In this document: piece after piece, positions 5,533-36,266 of the stretch
How positions within the stretch are numbered: the stretch's first letter is position 1
Layout of the letters: each line of letters opens with the position of its first letter
Assembly (NCBI GenBank): GCA_021295715.1
Contig: JAGWBV010000048.1
Coordinates: 24,099-64,790 of the forward strand
Direction: 5' to 3'
Source: Candidatus Poribacteria bacterium
Lineage (GTDB): Bacteria > Poribacteria > WGA-4E > WGA-3G
DNA length: 40,692 bases
Translations under genes and position numbers: made by a program
Notes under the pieces: generated by a model
Told to the model about the DNA's origin: nothing
Seen by the model: only the letters and a program-made list of their open reading frames with translations
Databases searched by the model: none

Positions 5533-5625
5533 AAACCGTAGCACGTAATGAAATGGAGTGCGACTCGAACATGAAGAACCTAAGAGACAGGCAACCGATA
5601 CTTATTCGCAAGGTAAAATTAAAAA
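5533..5625 (+). repeat. Structured start-codon-proximal element, copy G
   Basis: This copy starts with CCGTAGCACG and ends with CGCAAGGTAAAATTAAAAAAG, immediately before the AGGGG and GTG of the DUF420 gene. GCAC pairs with GTGC (first hairpin) and TGCGA with TCGCA (second hairpin). In the other copies these arms have different bases that still pair. It is the only plus-strand copy and keeps the same orientation relative to its gene. Confidence 0.7.
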
Positions 5626-9069: not shown

Positions 9070-10176
9070 TCACCCCACTATTTTAACGGTCGGCATTCGC
9101 GCCGGTTGGGCATCAAACGTGCCAACAGTATCAGCGACGTTACGGATCTGAATGAGCTGCGATGCGATGCTGACTGCGATCTCCGGTACTGTTTTCGAGT
9201 TAATATCGAGCCCGATGGGTGCGTACACCCGCTGAAGTCTGTCCTTGGAAATCCCTGCCTCCAGCAAATCGTCAAATATTAGTTTAATCTTGCGGCGACT
9301 GCCGATTAAACCGATGTAACCAGCATCCGATTCAACAACACTATGGAGTGCCGATTCATCGTGCTGATGCCCCCGGGTGACTATCACGACATACGTCAGT
9401 GGTGTGATCGGGTATTTTCGGAGTTCCGTTGCGATATCTCCGATGATAATTTCGTCCGCCTCTGGCAAGCGTTCAGCAGAGGCAAAGTCGGCGCGGTCGT
9501 CAACAATAGCAATGTCGAAATCCAACCAATTTCCAATATGACAGAGTGCTTGACCGACATGCCCTGCGCCTGCAATGAGCAACGTCGGTCTCGGTTGTAG
9601 TGGCTCTAAGAAGACCGAAGCCGTTTCGTTCTCCTGAAATAAGCCAGCTCTGTTCCGCGCAAGCACCTTCGCCGTCTCTTCTTCCACTGCCGTTTCTAAA
9701 GCCGGATCGCCTAACGTGCCGATGTGCTCACCTGTGTTCGCAAAAATCATCTTCATGCCAACATCAACGCCCTGCTTCTCACTCGCTACAACCGTTGCAC
9801 AGACGAGTGGGATTTTTTCGGCGTTCAACGTTTGAAGTCGCTCAAACATCTCGGCTTCGTCGGGGGTCTTCGGCAAATCGATAAAGATCTTCATATTCCC
9901 GCCGCAGATAAGCCCATCGTCCCAACCGTAATCGCTATCCAATTGAAACTCAAGCAGCCGCGGCACACCGTCTTGCATGAGTCCGATCGCCTGTCGCCGC
10001 GCTTCAGCTTCAACGCAACCTCCGCCGAGCGTCCCAATGTTCCGCAAATCTGGAAGAATCAAAAGCTTCGAGCCGGGTTTTTGTGGAGTTGAGCCTTTCG
10101 TCTCTACAACCGTGCAATACGCTCCGACTTGAGAAGATTCAATGAGTTCTGGAATTTTTTGGTATATTTCTCTCAT
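9070..10176 (-). CDS. XdhC/CoxF-family protein
   Basis: A 368-residue two-domain protein of the XdhC family, which inserts or matures the molybdenum cofactor of xanthine dehydrogenase and related hydroxylases. The N-terminal XdhC_CoxI domain shows VVETKGSTPQKPGSK and GTLGGGCVE with Cys54. The C-terminal Rossmann domain begins with LLIAGAGHVGQAL (about residues 198-210) and continues with IAIVDDRADFAS, YVVIVTRGHQHD and YIGLIGSRRK. No molybdenum hydroxylase subunit gene is beside it, so its client enzyme must be encoded elsewhere. The ATG follows an A-rich stretch (TAAAAAATG) and no Shine-Dalgarno sequence is obvious. Confidence 0.88.
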   Translation of the reverse strand: MREIYQKIPELIESSQVGAYCTVVETKGSTPQKPGSKLLILPDLRNIGTLGGGCVEAEARRQAIGLMQDGVPRLLEFQLDSDYGWDDGLICGGNMKIFIDLPKTPDEAEMFERLQTLNAEKIPLVCATVVASEKQGVDVGMKMIFANTGEHIGTLGDPALETAVEEETAKVLARNRAGLFQENETASVFLEPLQPRPTLLIAGAGHVGQALCHIGNWLDFDIAIVDDRADFASAERLPEADEIIIGDIATELRKYPITPLTYVVIVTRGHQHDESALHSVVESDAGYIGLIGSRRKIKLIFDDLLEAGISKDRLQRVYAPIGLDINSKTVPEIAVSIASQLIQIRNVADTVGTFDAQPARMPTVKIVG

Positions 10177-10259
10177 TTTTTAGTAGTCATCAGTCATCAG
10201 TTGTCAGAAGAATAGCCACCAGCAGTCAACAGAAGAAGCATCACACTGTCCACGAAAAT

Positions 10260-11171
10260 TTATAGGGCTTGGTCTTCGGCACTTTGTCCAACCAATTGTC
10301 TAAACTGTTCGCGTTGTTGCTCGGTCAACTCAAGTGGGACAATAGCCGCGATACCATCGTGTCCGATTTGTGCAGGAACATTCAGGTAAACGGATGTTGT
10401 CCCCGCTGAAACATGTGTCCCGACACTCATGACTCGCCTTTTATCAAGCGCGATCGCCGAAACGACCTGCAAAATATGACTTATCAATGTCCATTCGCCA
10501 CTCACGGTATACGGGGAACGCTGCGCAACGGCTCCACAGAGACTTTCAATACCAGTTTCGGAGATGAGTTGTGCAAGCGGAATGCCGTTCACTCGGCAGT
10601 ATTGTGGAAGCGGATACGTCTCCTGATCACTTCCGATCGCCAGAGCCATCACGTCTTTCACAGAGACATCAACACGTTTTGCGATTTCAGAGGCTAAGTG
10701 TGCTGTAGCAGCCCCGTTTCCAAGCCCGATAATCTGTCCACCGCCGAGTGTCTGATGTATCCATGAGGAGATGTAATTCGTGGGTGATATGGCTACCAGA
10801 ATTTTGGCATCCGAGGCATATTGCTGGATTCCAGTTACAAACCTTCGAGCGAGGGCGATACCTGTTGTCTTCGAGGCTTGAGGAGACCGAAAAATAGGTT
10901 GCCCCGTCGGTGGTAACAGAACAACGATGTCCGCACTCGCTAACCCCTCCAATGAATCGAAAACGGAAATCGCGGTGTCACTTGCGCTCAAAGCGTTTGC
11001 TTCCACCAGATCTCGGATGTCTGCCGGTGTGCCGTCTTTTGGATGAACAAATCTATTCTTGTTCGACGTCGCATCCGACACAAAGGCAAGTTCACGCGCC
11101 GTCTCCGATTGACACAAGCCCCAGGCAGTCGAGACGGCTAACTGACTGTTGCCTAATAAAGCTACTTTCAT
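10260..11171 (-). CDS. Lactate/malate dehydrogenase-fold protein lacking the catalytic signature
   Basis: A 303-residue protein with the overall order of the LDH/MDH superfamily: an N-terminal Rossmann strand MKVALLGNSQLA, a DIVVLLPPTGQP segment, a strand with VAISPTNYISS where the family has NPVD, GLGNGAATAHLAS where it has G-x-G-T-x-L-D-x-x-R, and IGSDQETYP where it has GEHG with the catalytic His. The nucleotide motif is also imperfect (GNSQLA instead of GxGxxG). These differences suggest an enzymatically altered or non-catalytic homologue. The C-terminal half (GVAQRSPYTVS, VPLELTEQQREQFRQLV) still follows MDH. It lies directly upstream of the XdhC gene in the same orientation. Fold call moderate; activity doubtful. 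Confidence 0.7.
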   Translation of the reverse strand: MKVALLGNSQLAVSTAWGLCQSETARELAFVSDATSNKNRFVHPKDGTPADIRDLVEANALSASDTAISVFDSLEGLASADIVVLLPPTGQPIFRSPQASKTTGIALARRFVTGIQQYASDAKILVAISPTNYISSWIHQTLGGGQIIGLGNGAATAHLASEIAKRVDVSVKDVMALAIGSDQETYPLPQYCRVNGIPLAQLISETGIESLCGAVAQRSPYTVSGEWTLISHILQVVSAIALDKRRVMSVGTHVSAGTTSVYLNVPAQIGHDGIAAIVPLELTEQQREQFRQLVGQSAEDQAL

Positions 11172-11197
11172 TTTTTAATAGTTTTCAGTTTTCAGTT

Positions 11198-14367: not shown

Positions 14368-14982
14368 TTAGAGAATTTCGAGTCCCCATGCGTCCCAGCC
14401 TTCGTACCGTTTTCGTGCGAATAGTTCAATCTTACACTGCTGTGGAAACATTTTCTCAATCCGTTTACGCACTGCTTCGGGTTTTTCAGAGTGGCGTGTC
14501 CGTTTAACCTGAACGAGTTGTCTCATATTTCTTGCCCCCCGCGGTTGTGGAATGTTCCCACGTCTGAAAACGAGGCATAACTCGCATTGGCTCATTGTGT
14601 AGAAACCGGGATTCAGGCGTTGCTTATCCCAGACGAAAGCGACTGTTGCCCACCGAAATCCCCACGCCTTGCCAAGCTGAATCGCTTGATCGAGATGCGG
14701 AGAAGAACTCCACATAAAAAGCAGACAATCCTCTTCGCTAATTGAGGCAATATCCCATGTCTTCATTTCTGACACCGGCAGAGTGGGATAGTGTCGAACA
14801 GCACCGCCACTATCCTTGCCTCCACTTCCTGTGTGCTGAAGTTGTCCCTTGTAATCCCACGGCGGATCGGCGTATATGATGCTGTACTTCTTATCCGGGA
14901 AGGGAGGATTTTTAATTATACCTTGCGGAGAAACGACGTAAATTTGAATCTTTTGTGTGCGTTCCTTATATCCGCCCTCCAT
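14368..14982 (-). CDS. MT-A70-family adenine methyltransferase
   Basis: A 204-residue protein of the MT-A70 family, which transfers methyl from SAM to N6 of adenine in DNA or RNA. The catalytic DPPW is at residues 39-42 in SIIYADPPWDY. Downstream are LPVSEMKTWDIAS, LFMWSSSPHLDQAI, GFRWATVAFVWDK and the terminal IELFARKRYEGWDAWG, all typical. No restriction endonuclease gene is adjacent, so it is probably a solitary methyltransferase. The only in-frame ATG before the core is at 14982, which places the first 25 or so residues inside dispersed element copy A. The core starts at about residue 31. An ATT or other non-standard start cannot be excluded. Confidence 0.88.
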   Translation of the reverse strand: MEGGYKERTQKIQIYVVSPQGIIKNPPFPDKKYSIIYADPPWDYKGQLQHTGSGGKDSGGAVRHYPTLPVSEMKTWDIASISEEDCLLFMWSSSPHLDQAIQLGKAWGFRWATVAFVWDKQRLNPGFYTMSQCELCLVFRRGNIPQPRGARNMRQLVQVKRTRHSEKPEAVRKRIEKMFPQQCKIELFARKRYEGWDAWGLEIL

Positions 14983-14998
14983 TTCATTATGGGCTACG
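14909..14998 (-). repeat. Structured start-codon-proximal element, copy A
   Basis: Reading on the minus strand it begins CGTAGCCCAT and ends CTCCGCAAGGTATAATTAAA. GCCC pairs with GGGC, GCGGA with TCCGC and GGAACG with CGTTTC. Unlike most copies it overlaps a coding region: its last two-thirds encode the N-terminus of the MT-A70 protein, including PQGIIKN. Confidence 0.75.
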
Positions 14999-15131
14999 TT
15001 CTTTTCTCAAAAAACGTACAGACTTTCAAAATCAGTCGAGACTGCCCAACACCTGCGCGCAACACTATCCTGCGAGCCTTTATAGGAAACTTGCACAAGG
15101 AGCGCAAGGCGAAAACCTAATCGTTAAAAAA

Positions 15132-15703: not shown

Positions 15704-15791
15704 TTTTTAATTTTTCCTTGCGGAGAACTTACGTGCGTTTAACCTCTCAGGTGCGTTCCTTAAATCCGCACGCCACTTCGTTACGTGCTAC
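15704..15791 (-). repeat. Structured start-codon-proximal element, copy B
   Basis: On the minus strand it begins GTAGCACGTAACG and ends CTCCGCAAGGAAAAATTAAA, about 12 bases before the nuoI-like start. GCACG pairs with CGTGC, GCGGA with TCCGC and GAAC with GTTC. Here a separate AGGAGG follows the element. Confidence 0.75.
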
Positions 15792-15870
15792 TCTCATGTC
15801 CTAAATGGTACAGACTCACCAACCCGGTTCTGAAGACTTTATTTATCAAACTCACGTTAATAAAAAATAG

Positions 15871-20142: not shown

Positions 20143-20741
20143 GCGAACTCCTTGGCGAGTGTTTCTTCTGAAATAACGCCGTGTCGCCGAACCAGTGGCG
20201 GCGACACGGAAATGTCGTAAACTGTAGAAGGGATGGGACCCGGTGTCTTCCCTCCATCAACGACCATATCAATTCGTGAGGTGAGTTCTTCACCAATTTC
20301 CGCAACGGAGGTGGCAGGCGGTTCTCCAGAGAGATTCGCGCTCGTTATAGCCATCGGTCCGCCAAACGCTTGGAGGATCTTCAATAGTAATGGATGATCT
20401 GGGATTCGGACCCCAACAGTATTCCCGCCAGCAGTTAACACTGGCAGCAGCCCTTTGCTTTCAATAACGATGGTCAAACCGCCGGGCCAAAACCGATCTG
20501 TGAGGTGAAAAAAGAAATCCGGTAGGTTTCGAGAGAAACGATGGATATCGGAAACAGAACTGAGAACGAGCGGAATCGGATTTCCATCCGGTCGTCCTTT
20601 TACTGTATACAATTTCTGCACGGCACTCGGATTAAAGGGGTCGGCTCCCAACCCATAGACTGTATCGGTGGGGATAGCGATAATACCGCCTGACTTTAGG
20701 TATTGGACGGCTTTTTTAATTTTTCCTTGCGGTTCAATCAT
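20124..20741 (-). CDS. tsaC: L-threonylcarbamoyladenylate synthase (Sua5/YrdC family)
   Basis: A 205-residue YrdC-domain protein that makes threonylcarbamoyl-AMP from threonine, bicarbonate and ATP for the t6A37 modification of tRNA. Motifs include GGIIAIPTDTVYGLGAD, KLYTVKGRPDGNPIPLVL, FWPGGLTIVI, TVGVRIPDHPLL and ITSANLSGEPPAT. I choose the ATG at 20741 because a frame extension to 20825 translates only repeat sequence. Even so the first residues (EPQGKIKK) are encoded by the 3' end of dispersed element copy F. The partner gene tsaD lies just upstream. A 19-bp overlap couples it to the next gene. Confidence 0.93.
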   Translation of the reverse strand: MIEPQGKIKKAVQYLKSGGIIAIPTDTVYGLGADPFNPSAVQKLYTVKGRPDGNPIPLVLSSVSDIHRFSRNLPDFFFHLTDRFWPGGLTIVIESKGLLPVLTAGGNTVGVRIPDHPLLLKILQAFGGPMAITSANLSGEPPATSVAEIGEELTSRIDMVVDGGKTPGPIPSTVYDISVSPPLVRRHGVISEETLAKEFACYNKR

Positions 20742-20861
20742 TTGATTTGTAGGTTGATGTCTTTCCACGTAGAACTGAAGAAACACCCAAGTAAAAACCC
20801 TTCCAAATGTAAAGCAAAGACACATTATGCCATTTAAGGAAACCTAATTTCATCACGGGTT
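20712..20861 (-). repeat. Structured start-codon-proximal element, copy F (diverged)
   Basis: On the minus strand it starts near AACCCGTGATG and ends at CCGCAAGGAAAAATTAAA. AACCC pairs with GGGTT, replacing GCCC/GGGC of other copies. It contains a segment, 20803-20831, that matches 36116-36144 of copy E at 28 of 29 positions. It also contains ACTTGGGTGTTTC, seen near 29110-29130 as well. The tsaC ATG lies within it. Confidence 0.6.
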
Positions 20862-24953: not shown

Positions 24954-26369
24954 TTATGAAATGATTCTCCAAGTAGCCCCCTCACGGGTGTCCTGGATTT
25001 CAATGTTGAGTTCTTTAAGTCTGTCCCGAATTTTATCAGATGTATCCCAGTCTTTGCGACTTCGAGCCTCCTGTCGAACCTCCAATAGCAGGTCAATGAG
25101 CTGGTCGCGTTGCTCCACGTTGCCGTCATCTTGGACATCCATATTGTAAATTCCGAGCACTTCACAGGTTTCAGTCAACACTTCGTAGGCTTGTGCGAAA
25201 ACGGGGGCAGCTGCTCCATCAGAAGTCGCAAGCGACCTGTTGACTTCGGCAACAAGCGTGAAAATAGCACCGAGTGCTTGTGCGGTATTGAAGTCTGTAT
25301 CCATTGCGTCTGTAAATTTCGACTTCATCGTCTGGATCGCGTCCTGAAGCGGTGAGGTCTCGGTTTCGCTCACATCAAACTGTCCGTTATACTTTTTCAA
25401 CGCGTCCAAACAGTTGTTCAAACGCCTGAGCGCGCCTTCCGATTTTGCCAAACTCTCTGGATTGTAGTCGAGTGGGTGCCGGTAATGTGCCGAAATCAGG
25501 AAATGCCGAATCACTTCAGTGGGATAATGGTCGAGAGCGTCTCGTAGCAGGATAAAATTCTGTTCGGATTTGCCCATTCGTTTGCCATCAATTTTCAAAA
25601 AAGCAACGTGCATCCAGTAACGTGCGAAGGTGCGTCCTGTTGCCAATTCGCTCTGTGCTATCTCATTTTCGTGGTGCGGGAACTGTAAATCTTCGCCACC
25701 TGCGTGAATATCAATTGTCTCACCGAGGTGTTTCATCGCCATGGCAGAACATTCTATATGCCATCCGGGTCTGCCTTTACCCCAAGGGCTCTCCCAAGAA
25801 GGCTCACCCGGCTTCGCGGCTTTCCACATATCAAAATCCCGCGGATCCTCCTTCCGCTCATCAATTTCAACACGTGCCCCCGCGAGGAGATCCTCCGGTT
25901 TCCGATGGGACAGTTTCCCATATTCAGCAAATTGATTCACGCGATAATATACACTTCCATCAATGACATAAGCCGCACCTTTATCAACTAAGGTCTGAAT
26001 TAGACTTATCATCTCCGGGATGTGTTCGGTTGCTTTCGGGTGAACATCTGCAGGATGGATACCGAGGCGTTGGGAATCCTCAAAGAATGCTTCGCCATTC
26101 TGATGTGCAAGTTGCTTGGCACTCACACCTAACTCTGCCGCACGATTGATAATCTTGTCATCAATATCCGTCAAATTTTGAACCAGTTTGACTTTGTACC
26201 CTCTATACACCAGATAGCGTCGAATAATATCTGTTATTAAAGCAGTCCGTGCGTTGCCCATATGAATATAATCGTAAACAGTCGGACCGCAACTGTAAAT
26301 AGATACCTGCTCGGGATTTAGCGGGACAAAATCCTCTAATTGTCGGCTCAGCGAGTTATAAATCTTCAT
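24954..26369 (-). CDS. cysS: Cysteinyl-tRNA synthetase
   Basis: A 471-residue class I synthetase that charges tRNA-Cys. The zinc and cysteine site begins with YSCGPTVYDYIHMGN, where C27 and the HIGH-equivalent HMGN (36-39) are seen. WHIECSAMAMKHLG and the IHAGGEDLQFPHHENEIAQSE region supply further zinc ligands. The KMSKS-equivalent is KRMGKSEQNF. The C-terminal anticodon-binding region is present and the length is normal. The ATG follows an A-rich leader (TTAAAAAATG). The gene follows ispF, matching the radA-PIN/TRAM-ispD-ispF-cysS order. Confidence 0.97.
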   Translation of the reverse strand: MKIYNSLSRQLEDFVPLNPEQVSIYSCGPTVYDYIHMGNARTALITDIIRRYLVYRGYKVKLVQNLTDIDDKIINRAAELGVSAKQLAHQNGEAFFEDSQRLGIHPADVHPKATEHIPEMISLIQTLVDKGAAYVIDGSVYYRVNQFAEYGKLSHRKPEDLLAGARVEIDERKEDPRDFDMWKAAKPGEPSWESPWGKGRPGWHIECSAMAMKHLGETIDIHAGGEDLQFPHHENEIAQSELATGRTFARYWMHVAFLKIDGKRMGKSEQNFILLRDALDHYPTEVIRHFLISAHYRHPLDYNPESLAKSEGALRRLNNCLDALKKYNGQFDVSETETSPLQDAIQTMKSKFTDAMDTDFNTAQALGAIFTLVAEVNRSLATSDGAAAPVFAQAYEVLTETCEVLGIYNMDVQDDGNVEQRDQLIDLLLEVRQEARSRKDWDTSDKIRDRLKELNIEIQDTREGATWRIIS

Positions 26370-29288: not shown

Positions 29289-30650
29289 TTACAGCAAAGC
29301 CCCGATACTGTCATATACGTCGCTAACACCTACAAGCTCAATCTCCTCGTCGATTTCCAAGCTTTTCCGGTTATATTCAGGGAAGATCACACGTCTGAAG
29401 CCTAACTTCGCGGCTTCTCGGATGCGTCTTTCAACATGTGTGACAGGACGAATTTCACCACCAAGCCCAACCTCCCCAATCACAACTGTCTTCCGATCCA
29501 CAGGGAGATCGCGATGGCTTGAGGATATTGCCATCATCACGCCGAGGTCTATCCCGGGTTCATCAATGCGTAACCCACCGGTAATGTTAATAAAAACGTC
29601 AGAATCCCCGACGTTAATCCCGACCCTCTTATTAAGGACGGCAATGAGCAAAGCAATTCGGTGTCTGTCCACTCCGGCTGCTGTATTACGAGGGTTTCCA
29701 TAATGTGTAGGCACGACGAGCGCCTGCACTTCCATGAGCAAAGGGCGGGTACCCTCTATACTTGAAACGACAACGGATCCTGAAACTTCTTCCTCCCTGT
29801 TGCTTAAAAAGAGTTCTGATGGGTTCATCACATCCACAAGCCCTGTGCTCTGCATCTCAAAGATACCAATCTCATTCGTGGAACCGAACCGATTTTTGAT
29901 TGCTCGAAGGATACGGTAAATGTGGTGTTGTTCACCCTCAAAATAGAGCACAGTATCTACCATGTGTTCTAAAACACGAGGCCCCGCGAGAGCCCCTTCC
30001 TTTGTCACATGTCCAACGAGAAACACTGGGATATTTCGATTCTTTGCACAAATTAGGAGATGTCCGGCACACTCACGAATCTGAGTAACGCTCCCAGGTG
30101 CAGACGGGATACTTGACAAATAAACCGTCTGTATAGAATCAACGATGACAACTTTCGGTTCTCGCTCCTCAATATACTTTTCAATCTGCTCTAAATTGTT
30201 TTCGCACAGCACATAGAGTGTATCAGATGCAACGCCGAGCCGAGTCGCACGGAGCTTCGTCTGGCTCACAGACTCCTCACCGGAAACGTAAAGCACATCC
30301 CCATAGTTCCGACTTAATGCATCACTGGCTTGTAGTAATAATGTAGATTTGCCGATCCCAGGATCTCCGCCGATAAGGACTACGGAACCCGGTACAATCC
30401 CGCCACCGAGTACTCTATCAAACTCCGACATTCCCGTGAGGTGTCGTTCTACTTCGCTTGCTGTAACCTGCGAAATGGGTTCGGGTTCGCGAGACATTTG
30501 TCCGATATCACGATGTTTCGATGGCGTCGTGAGGGTTTCCACCTCTTCGGCGAAACTCTGCCAACTTCTACAAGTCGGACACCGTCCGAGCGTCTTCGGT
30601 GTTGTATACCCACATTCTTGACAGACAAATTTGCGTCGCTCTCGTGCCAT
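29289..30650 (-). CDS. radA: DNA repair protein RadA (Sms)
   Basis: A 453-residue RadA, a RecA-like ATPase that promotes branch migration in recombinational repair and transformation. The N-terminal zinc finger is C10-x2-C13-x10-C24-x2-C27. Walker A is GDPGIGKST at 94-102, and the Rad-specific KNRFGSTNEIG motif is at about 250. The Lon-like C-terminal domain shows GVDRHRIALLIAVL, DVFINITGGLRIDEPG and VVIGEVGLGGEIRPV. Full length. Element copy C ends two or three bases before the ATG. Confidence 0.97.
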   Translation of the reverse strand: MARERRKFVCQECGYTTPKTLGRCPTCRSWQSFAEEVETLTTPSKHRDIGQMSREPEPISQVTASEVERHLTGMSEFDRVLGGGIVPGSVVLIGGDPGIGKSTLLLQASDALSRNYGDVLYVSGEESVSQTKLRATRLGVASDTLYVLCENNLEQIEKYIEEREPKVVIVDSIQTVYLSSIPSAPGSVTQIRECAGHLLICAKNRNIPVFLVGHVTKEGALAGPRVLEHMVDTVLYFEGEQHHIYRILRAIKNRFGSTNEIGIFEMQSTGLVDVMNPSELFLSNREEEVSGSVVVSSIEGTRPLLMEVQALVVPTHYGNPRNTAAGVDRHRIALLIAVLNKRVGINVGDSDVFINITGGLRIDEPGIDLGVMMAISSSHRDLPVDRKTVVIGEVGLGGEIRPVTHVERRIREAAKLGFRRVIFPEYNRKSLEIDEEIELVGVSDVYDSIGALL

Positions 30651-30654
30651 TCTT

Positions 30655-30794
30655 TAATTTTACCTTGCGGAGGAACAACGTGCGTTTTGACTTTGAAGTG
30701 CGTTCCTTATACCCGTCTGCGCCGTTGTTGCAGGCTACGGTTTTTTAGTTATACCTTGAGGAACCTTTATGAGGCGACCCTCTTTACTGACTGC
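30655..30794 (-). repeat. Structured start-codon-proximal element, copy C with upstream extension
   Basis: The core copy (30655-30740) starts CCGTAGCCTGC and ends CCGCAAGGTAAAATTAAA just before the radA ATG. CTGC pairs with GCAG and GGAAC with GTTCC. The outer GCGGA/TCCGC pairing is only partly kept here. Beyond the core, up to 30794, it shares a further segment with copy D (ATAAAGGTT-CCTCA, GAGGGT). Confidence 0.75.
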
Positions 30795-32375: not shown

Positions 32376-33155
32376 CTACCTCCCCAAATATTTTTTCAAA
32401 ATGGGATTTTCCATGTTAAGAATCTGGTCGGGTGCTCCAAATAGGATGAACTGTTGCAAAATGGGATCGTCGATGTTGATAATTTCATCCGGTCTACCAT
32501 AAGCGACCTGCTTACCTTCATGAATCATCGCCATCCGAGTCGCGACACTGAAGGCACTGTGCATATCATGTGTAACCACAACGGAAGTAACTTGTAACCT
32601 CTTATGGAGATCTTTAATAAGTTGATTGATTTCGGTACAGGTAACCGGGTCAAGACCGGTCGTGGGTTCATCGTACAGAATAACCTCTGGATCAAATGCC
32701 AGGGCGCGTGCGAGTCCAACCCGTTTTCGCATACCGCCACTCAATTCAGCGGGTCGCAAGTCTTGGACCCCCTTTAAATCAACAAGACCGAGTTTCTCAT
32801 CAACGACCTCACGCATCTCTCGTTTGTCAAGATCTGTATGCTGATCGAGCATAAAAGCGACGTTCTCCGCCACAGTCATCGAATCAAAGAGTGCAGCAGA
32901 CTGAAATAGCATTCCAATCTTTCGGCGGAGGATATTTATCTTTTTGCCTTTTAGGTTCGATATTTCGGTTCCATCAAACCAAATTTCACCGGAATCCGCA
33001 GCCATCAGTCCAGTAATAATTTTGAGGAGTACACTCTTACCACACCCACTTTGTCCCATAATCACAAGCGTCTCACCCCGCGGAATTTCAAGACTCAATC
33101 CATTTAAAACGCTGTTGCCGCCAAAATTTTTTGTAACATTCCTAATTGAAATCAT
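32376..33155 (-). CDS. mlaF: Mla-type ABC transporter ATP-binding protein
   Basis: A 259-residue ABC ATPase of the MlaF/Mkl type, which powers phospholipid transport between the membranes. Walker A is GQSGCGKS (34-41), the Q-loop is MLFQSAALFDSMTV, the signature is LSGGMRKRVGLARAL and Walker B is VILYDEPTTGLD. The switch His is in VVTHDM. The C-terminal region has a repeated sequence (DDPILQQFILFGAPDQILNM). The start ATG follows element copy D directly, with no other ribosome binding site. Its stop is one base before the mlaD-like gene, so they are coupled. Confidence 0.95.
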   Translation of the reverse strand: MISIRNVTKNFGGNSVLNGLSLEIPRGETLVIMGQSGCGKSVLLKIITGLMAADSGEIWFDGTEISNLKGKKINILRRKIGMLFQSAALFDSMTVAENVAFMLDQHTDLDKREMREVVDEKLGLVDLKGVQDLRPAELSGGMRKRVGLARALAFDPEVILYDEPTTGLDPVTCTEINQLIKDLHKRLQVTSVVVTHDMHSAFSVATRMAMIHEGKQVAYGRPDEIINIDDPILQQFILFGAPDQILNMENPILKKYLGR

Positions 33156-33300
33156 TTTTTAATTTTACCTTGCGGAGGCACAGCGTGCGTTTGGACTTTG
33201 ACGGACGTTGCTCATATCCGCCTGCGCCGGTGTTGCAGGCTACGGTTTTTACTTATACAATTGAGGAAACCTTTATCAGGCGAAACCCTCTTTACCAACA
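33156..33300 (-). repeat. Structured start-codon-proximal element, copy D with upstream extension
   Basis: The core (33156-33245) starts CCGTAGCCTGC and ends CCGCAAGGTAAAATTAAA against the mlaF ATG. GCCTGC pairs perfectly with GCAGGC and GCGGA with TCCGC. The upstream part to 33300 matches that of copy C (GATAAAGGTT-CCTCAA). Confidence 0.8.
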
Positions 33301-35598: not shown

Positions 35599-36045
35599 TT
35601 ACGCTTCGCGTTCAACAACAACGCGGAGTTCGACGACAACATCTGTATACAATTTGATCGGTACCATGAACACGCCGAGTTCACGAATCGGCTCTGCGAG
35701 TTCAAAGAACCGCCGTTCCAAATCGAATCCCTGCGTTCGCAAATTTTCTGCGATATCCATAGAGGTAACGGATCCGAAGAGACGGTCGTTTTCACCGGCA
35801 CGTCTGCTGAGTGTACATGTAACACCTGTCATCTGTCCGGCAATTTCACGTGCGCGATCTTTATTCTTCGTCTCCTGATGATCGATTACCCGTTTCTGGT
35901 GATCTAAGTGTCGACGGTTTCGTTCCGTTGCATGGACGGCTAACTGCATGGGAAGCAGATAGTTACGTGCGTAGCCATCTGCGACATTCAGGACATCGCC
36001 CGGTAGACCGAGGCCTTCAACACTTTCCTTTAGAATAACTTCCAT
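35599..36045 (-). CDS. rplI: 50S ribosomal protein L9
   Basis: A 148-residue L9. It starts MEVILKESVEGLGLPGDVLNVADGYARNYLLP, the family hallmark, and has the long connecting helix and a C-terminal domain with FELAEPIRELGVFMVPIKL. The C-terminus is intact. The ATG follows element copy E directly. It is downstream of rpsR and two bases from dnaB, in the widespread rpsF-ssb-rpsR-rplI-dnaB order. Confidence 0.97.
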   Translation of the reverse strand: MEVILKESVEGLGLPGDVLNVADGYARNYLLPMQLAVHATERNRRHLDHQKRVIDHQETKNKDRAREIAGQMTGVTCTLSRRAGENDRLFGSVTSMDIAENLRTQGFDLERRFFELAEPIRELGVFMVPIKLYTDVVVELRVVVEREA

Positions 36046-36181
36046 TTTTTAATTATACCTTGCGGAGAAACGACGCAAATTTGGATATTTCACGTACATT
36101 CCTGAGATCCGCCCTCCAAATGTAAAGCAAAGACAAATTATGCCTCGTATGTCTAAAGCAGGCATAATTCCATTACGGGCT
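36046..36181 (-). repeat. Structured start-codon-proximal element, copy E with nested palindrome
   Basis: The copy ends CCGCAAGGTATAATTAAA against the rplI ATG. GCCC near 36180 pairs with GGGC near 36110, and GCGGA with TCCGC. Relative to copy A, about 45 bp are inserted in the first hairpin's loop. The insert has AATTATGCCT (36136-36145) and AGGCATAATT (36160-36169), a perfect 10-bp inverted repeat. The segment 36116-36144 matches copy F at 28 of 29 positions. Confidence 0.75.
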
Positions 36182-36266
36182 AAGGTAAAAAAGTTTTGGG
36201 TTTGGATTTCCCTGCCCAAAAAAACCATACTTCATAGGGGAACCCATTGTAAGGGTCTGCCCACTT

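Follow-up and report, generated by a model that had tools for sequence, protein, structure and literature searches.

A dispersed structured repeat often ending at start codons in one poribacterial genus, a candidate mobile source of ribosome-binding sites

The window, i.e., the whole 40,692-nucleotide stretch of Candidatus Poribacteria DNA analyzed here, contains rplI and radA-like, mlaF-like, and nuoI-like genes, each preceded by a copy of the same structured element (Table 1). An earlier note on this DNA had listed seven copies, and all of them are present in the window sequence at, or a few bases from, the places proposed; the copy given as 30655-30740 in fact spans 30651-30740. The tail pattern CGCAAGGTAAAATTAAAAA had 8 matches with at most 3 mismatches in the window versus 0.02 expected. 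The copies had all been described as ending at or next to start codons. Three of the seven do so with 0 nt between and two lie ~10 to 11 nt away, but two have no clear start. Copies 20712-20861 and 36046-36181 contain extra sequence in the first hairpin (hairpin 1). Unrelated ACTGATGACTGATGACT-type repeats in the window (10170-10202 and 11165-11197) also end in CTAAAAA-ATG or TTAAAAA-ATG.

Table 1. Element copies and related leader ends in the window
Feature	Position	Strand	Relation to start codon; remarks
Element copy at rplI	36046-36185	-	Fused to ATG (0 nt, 36045) of rplI gene 35599-36045
Element copy at mlaF-like ABC ATPase gene 32376-33155	33156-33245	-	Fused to ATG, 0 nt (33155)
Element copy at radA-like gene 29289-30650	30651-30740	-	Fused to ATG, 0 nt (30650)
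Older, degenerate tail CTCAAGGTATAACTAAAAAA	30742-30772	-	Directly 5' of radA copy
Element copy before nuoI-like ferredoxin gene	15704-15793	-	11 nt to ATG; native CAGGAGG between; start context CAGGAGGCAATG
Element copy	14909-14999	-	No clear start codon at tail
Element copy	5536-5625	+	~10 nt before GTG start with its own AGGGG; start context AGGGGAAAATGTG
Divergent element copy, hairpin 1 with extra sequence	20713-20861	-	Low score, 32.8 bits; no clear start at tail
Second-family-like leader end GGGCAGTTCAGGAACCCATAGTTAAAAA	26370-26410	-	At ATG of gene 24954-26369; degenerate hairpin, tentative assignment

The element is ~90 nt long and consists of hairpin 1, a less conserved hairpin 2, and a tail resembling a ribosome-binding site (RBS), with the 3' end CCGCAAGG-TAWAATTAAAAA-ATG. 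Hairpin 1 has a constant internal loop, GNAAYG-N-ARUGGA, and its structure can be read directly from an alignment of 81 copies: pair 8-25 is CG in 61, UA in 15, AU in 3, and UG in 2 copies with 0 broken, pair 9-24 is UA in 38, CG in 37, and UG in 5 with 1 broken, and pair 15-19 is CG in 58 and UA in 23 with 0 broken. These changes on both sides of a pair bear out the compensatory arm changes reported in the earlier note. Covariation persisted once many copies were aligned, as both the covariation score and the percentage of pairing in hairpin 1 were higher than in any of 500 shuffles or any slid version. The hairpin-1 stem is 97% paired, yet a copy and its closest counterpart elsewhere in the genome typically share only ~84% identity. 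The compensatory changes strongly support hairpin 1 and are in line with selection on its structure. Between orthologous copies, changed stem pairs kept their pairing in 11 cases against 1, some of them not independent; among them is a C-G to U-A double change in the nuoJ copy between genomes G010 and G050. With few independent events, these changes are suggestive of stem pairing. Hairpin 2 was kept in part, with only 68 to 70% of cells paired. The earlier proposal that the two hairpins are alternative pairings gained little support: hairpin 2 is only weakly kept, it does not have to overlap hairpin 1, and the bases common to both are no evidence of switching.

Full length was found in 74/90 copies, and inserts in hairpin 1 account for most of the others. 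Many copies carry a palindrome or other insert in the hairpin-1 loop, and their arms still pair. The loop of the rplI copy holds a nested palindrome (TTATGCC...GGCATAATTTGTCTTTGCTTTACAT; window 36090-36145, L316 and L322), present in G000 and G010; the rplI copy of G008 has an empty loop, which provides a filled/empty pair for this nested repeat.

A covariance model (R1) built from the 81 copies found at least 150 matches in the window's own genome, all with E values of ≤1e-10. Element densities were derived from contigs: the 46 matches in the window and a single 250-kb contig together correspond to ~1 per 6 kb and, by extrapolation, to roughly 800 copies per genome. The element occurred in 36/36 tested genomes of this genus of sponge-associated Poribacteria, with at least 150 matches in most and with 1, 8, and 19 in G022, G045, and G047, respectively. 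Outside the genus, 1/24 genomes of other genera had the element, with a single match. The lone match, in G035, is strong (E value of 3e-16) and may reflect contamination or transfer. When searched over 84,980 species, the exact tail pattern was found in at least 119 stretches, and every record among those listed was from Poribacteria. Viral contigs contained only tail-like partial matches (best E value, 1e-4).

Contact with start codons was evaluated in a repeat-blind sample of 478 kb comprising contig C3, the window, and 186 kb of the complete genome G010. Direct fusion to the start codon was frequent: an ATG lay within 2 nt of the tail in 32/64 copies and at exactly 0 nt in 20, whereas we estimated ~0.1 chance contact in 64 copies from one start per ~2.4 kb and strand. 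In a few further cases, one extra 20-nt tail copy lay between the element and the ATG. The link to start codons therefore extends genome-wide, as does the strong site preference suggested in the earlier note, and 37/46 copies have the same strand as the gene that follows; the copies are not mostly far from starts and randomly oriented. About half of the copies have no start-codon contact. No ATG motif followed the tail of copies away from starts in the 478 kb, which argues that ATG is not a sequence target. Hairpin 1 was almost never found as an independent repeat outside the element in this sample. It was equally intact away from starts (135/140 cells) and at starts (219/225 cells), which is compatible with a function in copying as much as with one in translation. 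Many copies sit inside operons. The 20 downstream genes with Pfam assignments were mixed (radA, mlaF-type ATPase, ribosomal protein L9, NADH dehydrogenase subunits, EngA/Der, sulfatase, and aminotransferase, among others); nuoD, nuoJ, nuoM, and nuoN all lie downstream of copies. By eye, a good sigma-70-like promoter (TTGACA-17-TATCAT) lies upstream of the nuoD copy (L269:17560-17660), and the element there would accordingly be in the 5' untranslated region.

The AAGG of the tail, noted earlier as a possible binding site, was intact in 56/56 start-adjacent copies versus 34/38 other copies (P = 0.02), as would be expected of a Shine-Dalgarno (SD) sequence, and its spacing to the ATG is long (12 to 13 nt). 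SD motifs were found in 100/191 genes without the element. The predicted accessibility of AAGG was 0.42, compared to 0.50 with a shuffled body. This slightly lower value gives no clear sign that the body exposes the RBS, and we rejected that function, as the test gave the opposite sign.

Comparison with orthologous loci lacking the element revealed presence/absence differences at rplI and mlaF. In most relatives, rplI has a common leader ending like TTTAGGTTTTCAATT-ATG, i.e., TTTAGG-TTTCAATT-ATG. In G000, G008, and G010, the left flank of this leader is kept, but the element occupies the place of its last 15 nt, which are lost. The lost 15 nt are the native RBS, and rplI offers the cleanest comparison, in which the element has replaced that site. 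G017, G040, and G043 have no element body at rplI and carry the tail AAGGAAAATTAAAAA-ATG, or a close variant, as the apparent RBS. The mlaF copy is common to G008, G013, and G010 and absent from other relatives, the radA copy is common to G008 and G010, both are in tandem in G010, and at both genes the copy is immediately preceded on its 5' side by an older tail. At nuoJ, several different element bodies occupy one start codon across six genomes, with a constant tail and ATG. At nuoN in G017 and G043, a newer copy lies within an older tail and is flanked on both sides by ATTA in G017. New copies lay 3' of an old TTAAAA no more often than was seen at control positions (9 versus 10 versus 7 of 250), so nested insertion is seen at particular loci only. 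The best identity between copies at different loci was ~92%, which indicates no recent burst. Copies also form arrays: five or six head-to-tail units, the last of another subfamily, end at an ATG in G000 (contig C39, L275:10746-11310, with a run of N inside), and seven tandem 142-bp units with one element each, the last ending at an ATG, were found in OX638352.1 (L051:2652-3521). One other replacement and one other insertion were also observed. In the nuoK region of G000 (L269:12979-13390), an (ATCAGCC)n palindrome ending in ACTAAAAAA-ATG replaces the 16-nt intergenic spacer of G040, G017, G008, and G013. Upstream of nuoM in G010 (L278), a GGACTTACGCA...TGCGTAAGTCC element is inserted in an element tail, with a fresh AGGTATAATTAAAAA before the ATG.

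By asking what else ends in TTAAAAA-ATG, we found a second family of the form ACC-TGCGC-GUAAUGUAAUGGA-GCGCA-GCCCAGGAGGCCAUAAUUAAAAA-AUG, which has the same hairpin type, AGGAGG, and TTAAAAA but no hairpin 2. With model R2, all 36 genomes of the genus had copies (2 to 94 each), and the 24 genomes outside it had none. A start codon followed within a few nucleotides in 27 of the 29 best copies that were located. In 59 copies found with a sequence-only profile, stem positions were 93 to 100% paired with up to four pair types each, a value biased toward pairing, since the seed copies were picked for arms that pair and some of the 59 came from loci selected by the structure model. At the MR_MLE gene, the families differ between sister species: seven genomes have the first family at the ATG, and four others have the second there. 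TTAAAAA-ATG is also the end of further leaders whose bodies are unrelated.

On this evidence, the element is probably a copied, structured 5' mRNA leader that supplies an RBS; this reading draws on the retention of AAGG, the replacement at rplI, the tails without a body, and the second family with its consensus SD. A leader of ~90 nt would have been copied to positions before several hundred genes in this genus, much like a fragment of mRNA leader dispersing through the genome. Its 3' end would act as the RBS, with AAGG as the SD sequence used by ribosomes, followed by an A/U-rich spacer and the start codon, and an arriving copy would assume the RBS role for its gene, with the native site displaced or replaced. 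Hairpin 1 may act in RNA, through stability, as a standby site, or in protein binding, and in spreading, new copies may have been placed within or beside existing RBS regions via recombination or some enzyme. More tentatively, we propose a portable RBS, i.e., a selfish or host-tolerated leader family of at least two sequence classes that would have overwritten the translation-initiation regions of hundreds of unrelated genes in one genus and then been kept through gene dependence. The earlier note had opposed a functional structure to a mobile repeat; each idea stands in part, and the evidence favors both together, a repeat that moved between genes and brought an RBS with it.

We regard as rather unlikely that the element is a non-autonomous DNA transposon or REP-like repeat, whose hairpin would serve transposition as single-stranded DNA, whose location at starts would reflect an A-rich target or purifying selection, and whose RBS activity would be incidental. 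This account fits the many copies, the CCGTAG foot before the palindrome, a hairpin kept irrespective of position, the tandem arrays, and the new copy in the old nuoN tail of G017 with its ATTA flanks, and hairpin 1 is a conserved subterminal hairpin, a trait of the IS200/IS605 type. However, neither element ends nor tail were present at 16 Y1_Tnp loci of four genomes, so we rejected a Y1 transposase partner, and the window's own genome has one PF01797 gene whereas G022, with its single element copy, has five. Furthermore, GTAG is not invariant (the foot varies as TAG, AAG, CAG, and GAG, with only AG constant), and the account is also opposed by the lack of an ATG motif after non-start copies and of a recent burst. 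REP/RAYT repeats (TnpA_REP, IS200/IS605-related) resemble the element as short intergenic palindromic repeats with hundreds of copies and a (GT)AG foot by the stem. In form they come closest, but the element lacks two of their defining features: it has no partner Y1 transposase with such ends among the loci examined, and its foot is variable. Unlike them, it carries an RBS and is fused to start codons in one orientation. A non-LTR-like target-primed retroelement was rejected, as frequent 5' truncation with an intact 3' end was not seen.

A conventional cis-regulatory RNA, a riboswitch or protein-binding leader controlling one regulon, is highly improbable. The covarying hairpin just upstream of start codons, in the 5' leader position, is shared with Rfam leader motifs, but the element is genus restricted, has hundreds of copies, and is gained and lost between sister species. 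Its downstream genes, often in operons, lack a coherent function; being mixed and housekeeping, they point to no single regulon. The window had no Rfam match at the gathering threshold, and nothing fell on the element at a relaxed E value. Least likely of all is a mobile promoter giving leaderless transcripts, which would use the tail GGTATAATTAAAAA-ATG as a -10 box at -12 to -7: TAWAAT is suitably placed relative to the A of ATG, but we rejected this reading because inspection revealed no -35-like hexamer at the right distance, CAAGG is conserved as much as TAWAAT, many copies lie within operons, the second family combines AGGAGG with a weak -10, and genes lacking the element often have SD motifs.

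Like Correia/NEMIS, BOX, and RUP, the element is a dispersed structured repeat near genes that could join transcripts. Those families supply promoters or RNase III sites or are just located upstream, and none is known to terminate precisely at a start codon or to take the place of an RBS. The element appears to belong among dispersed structured intergenic repeats and would be a new kind if its RBS function is proven; no such repeat in Poribacteria was described in the literature searched, which was mostly open access. If the element is indeed a copied leader supplying an RBS, a large fraction of genes, ribosomal-protein and respiratory-complex genes among them, would owe their start regions to a repeat family. 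Start regions would then have been reset within a genus, a route of translation rewiring undescribed in the literature searched, and selection on RNA structure would be separable from repeat spread by comparing sister species. The genus would offer natural experiments in which the same gene carries a native, first-family, second-family, or tail-only leader.
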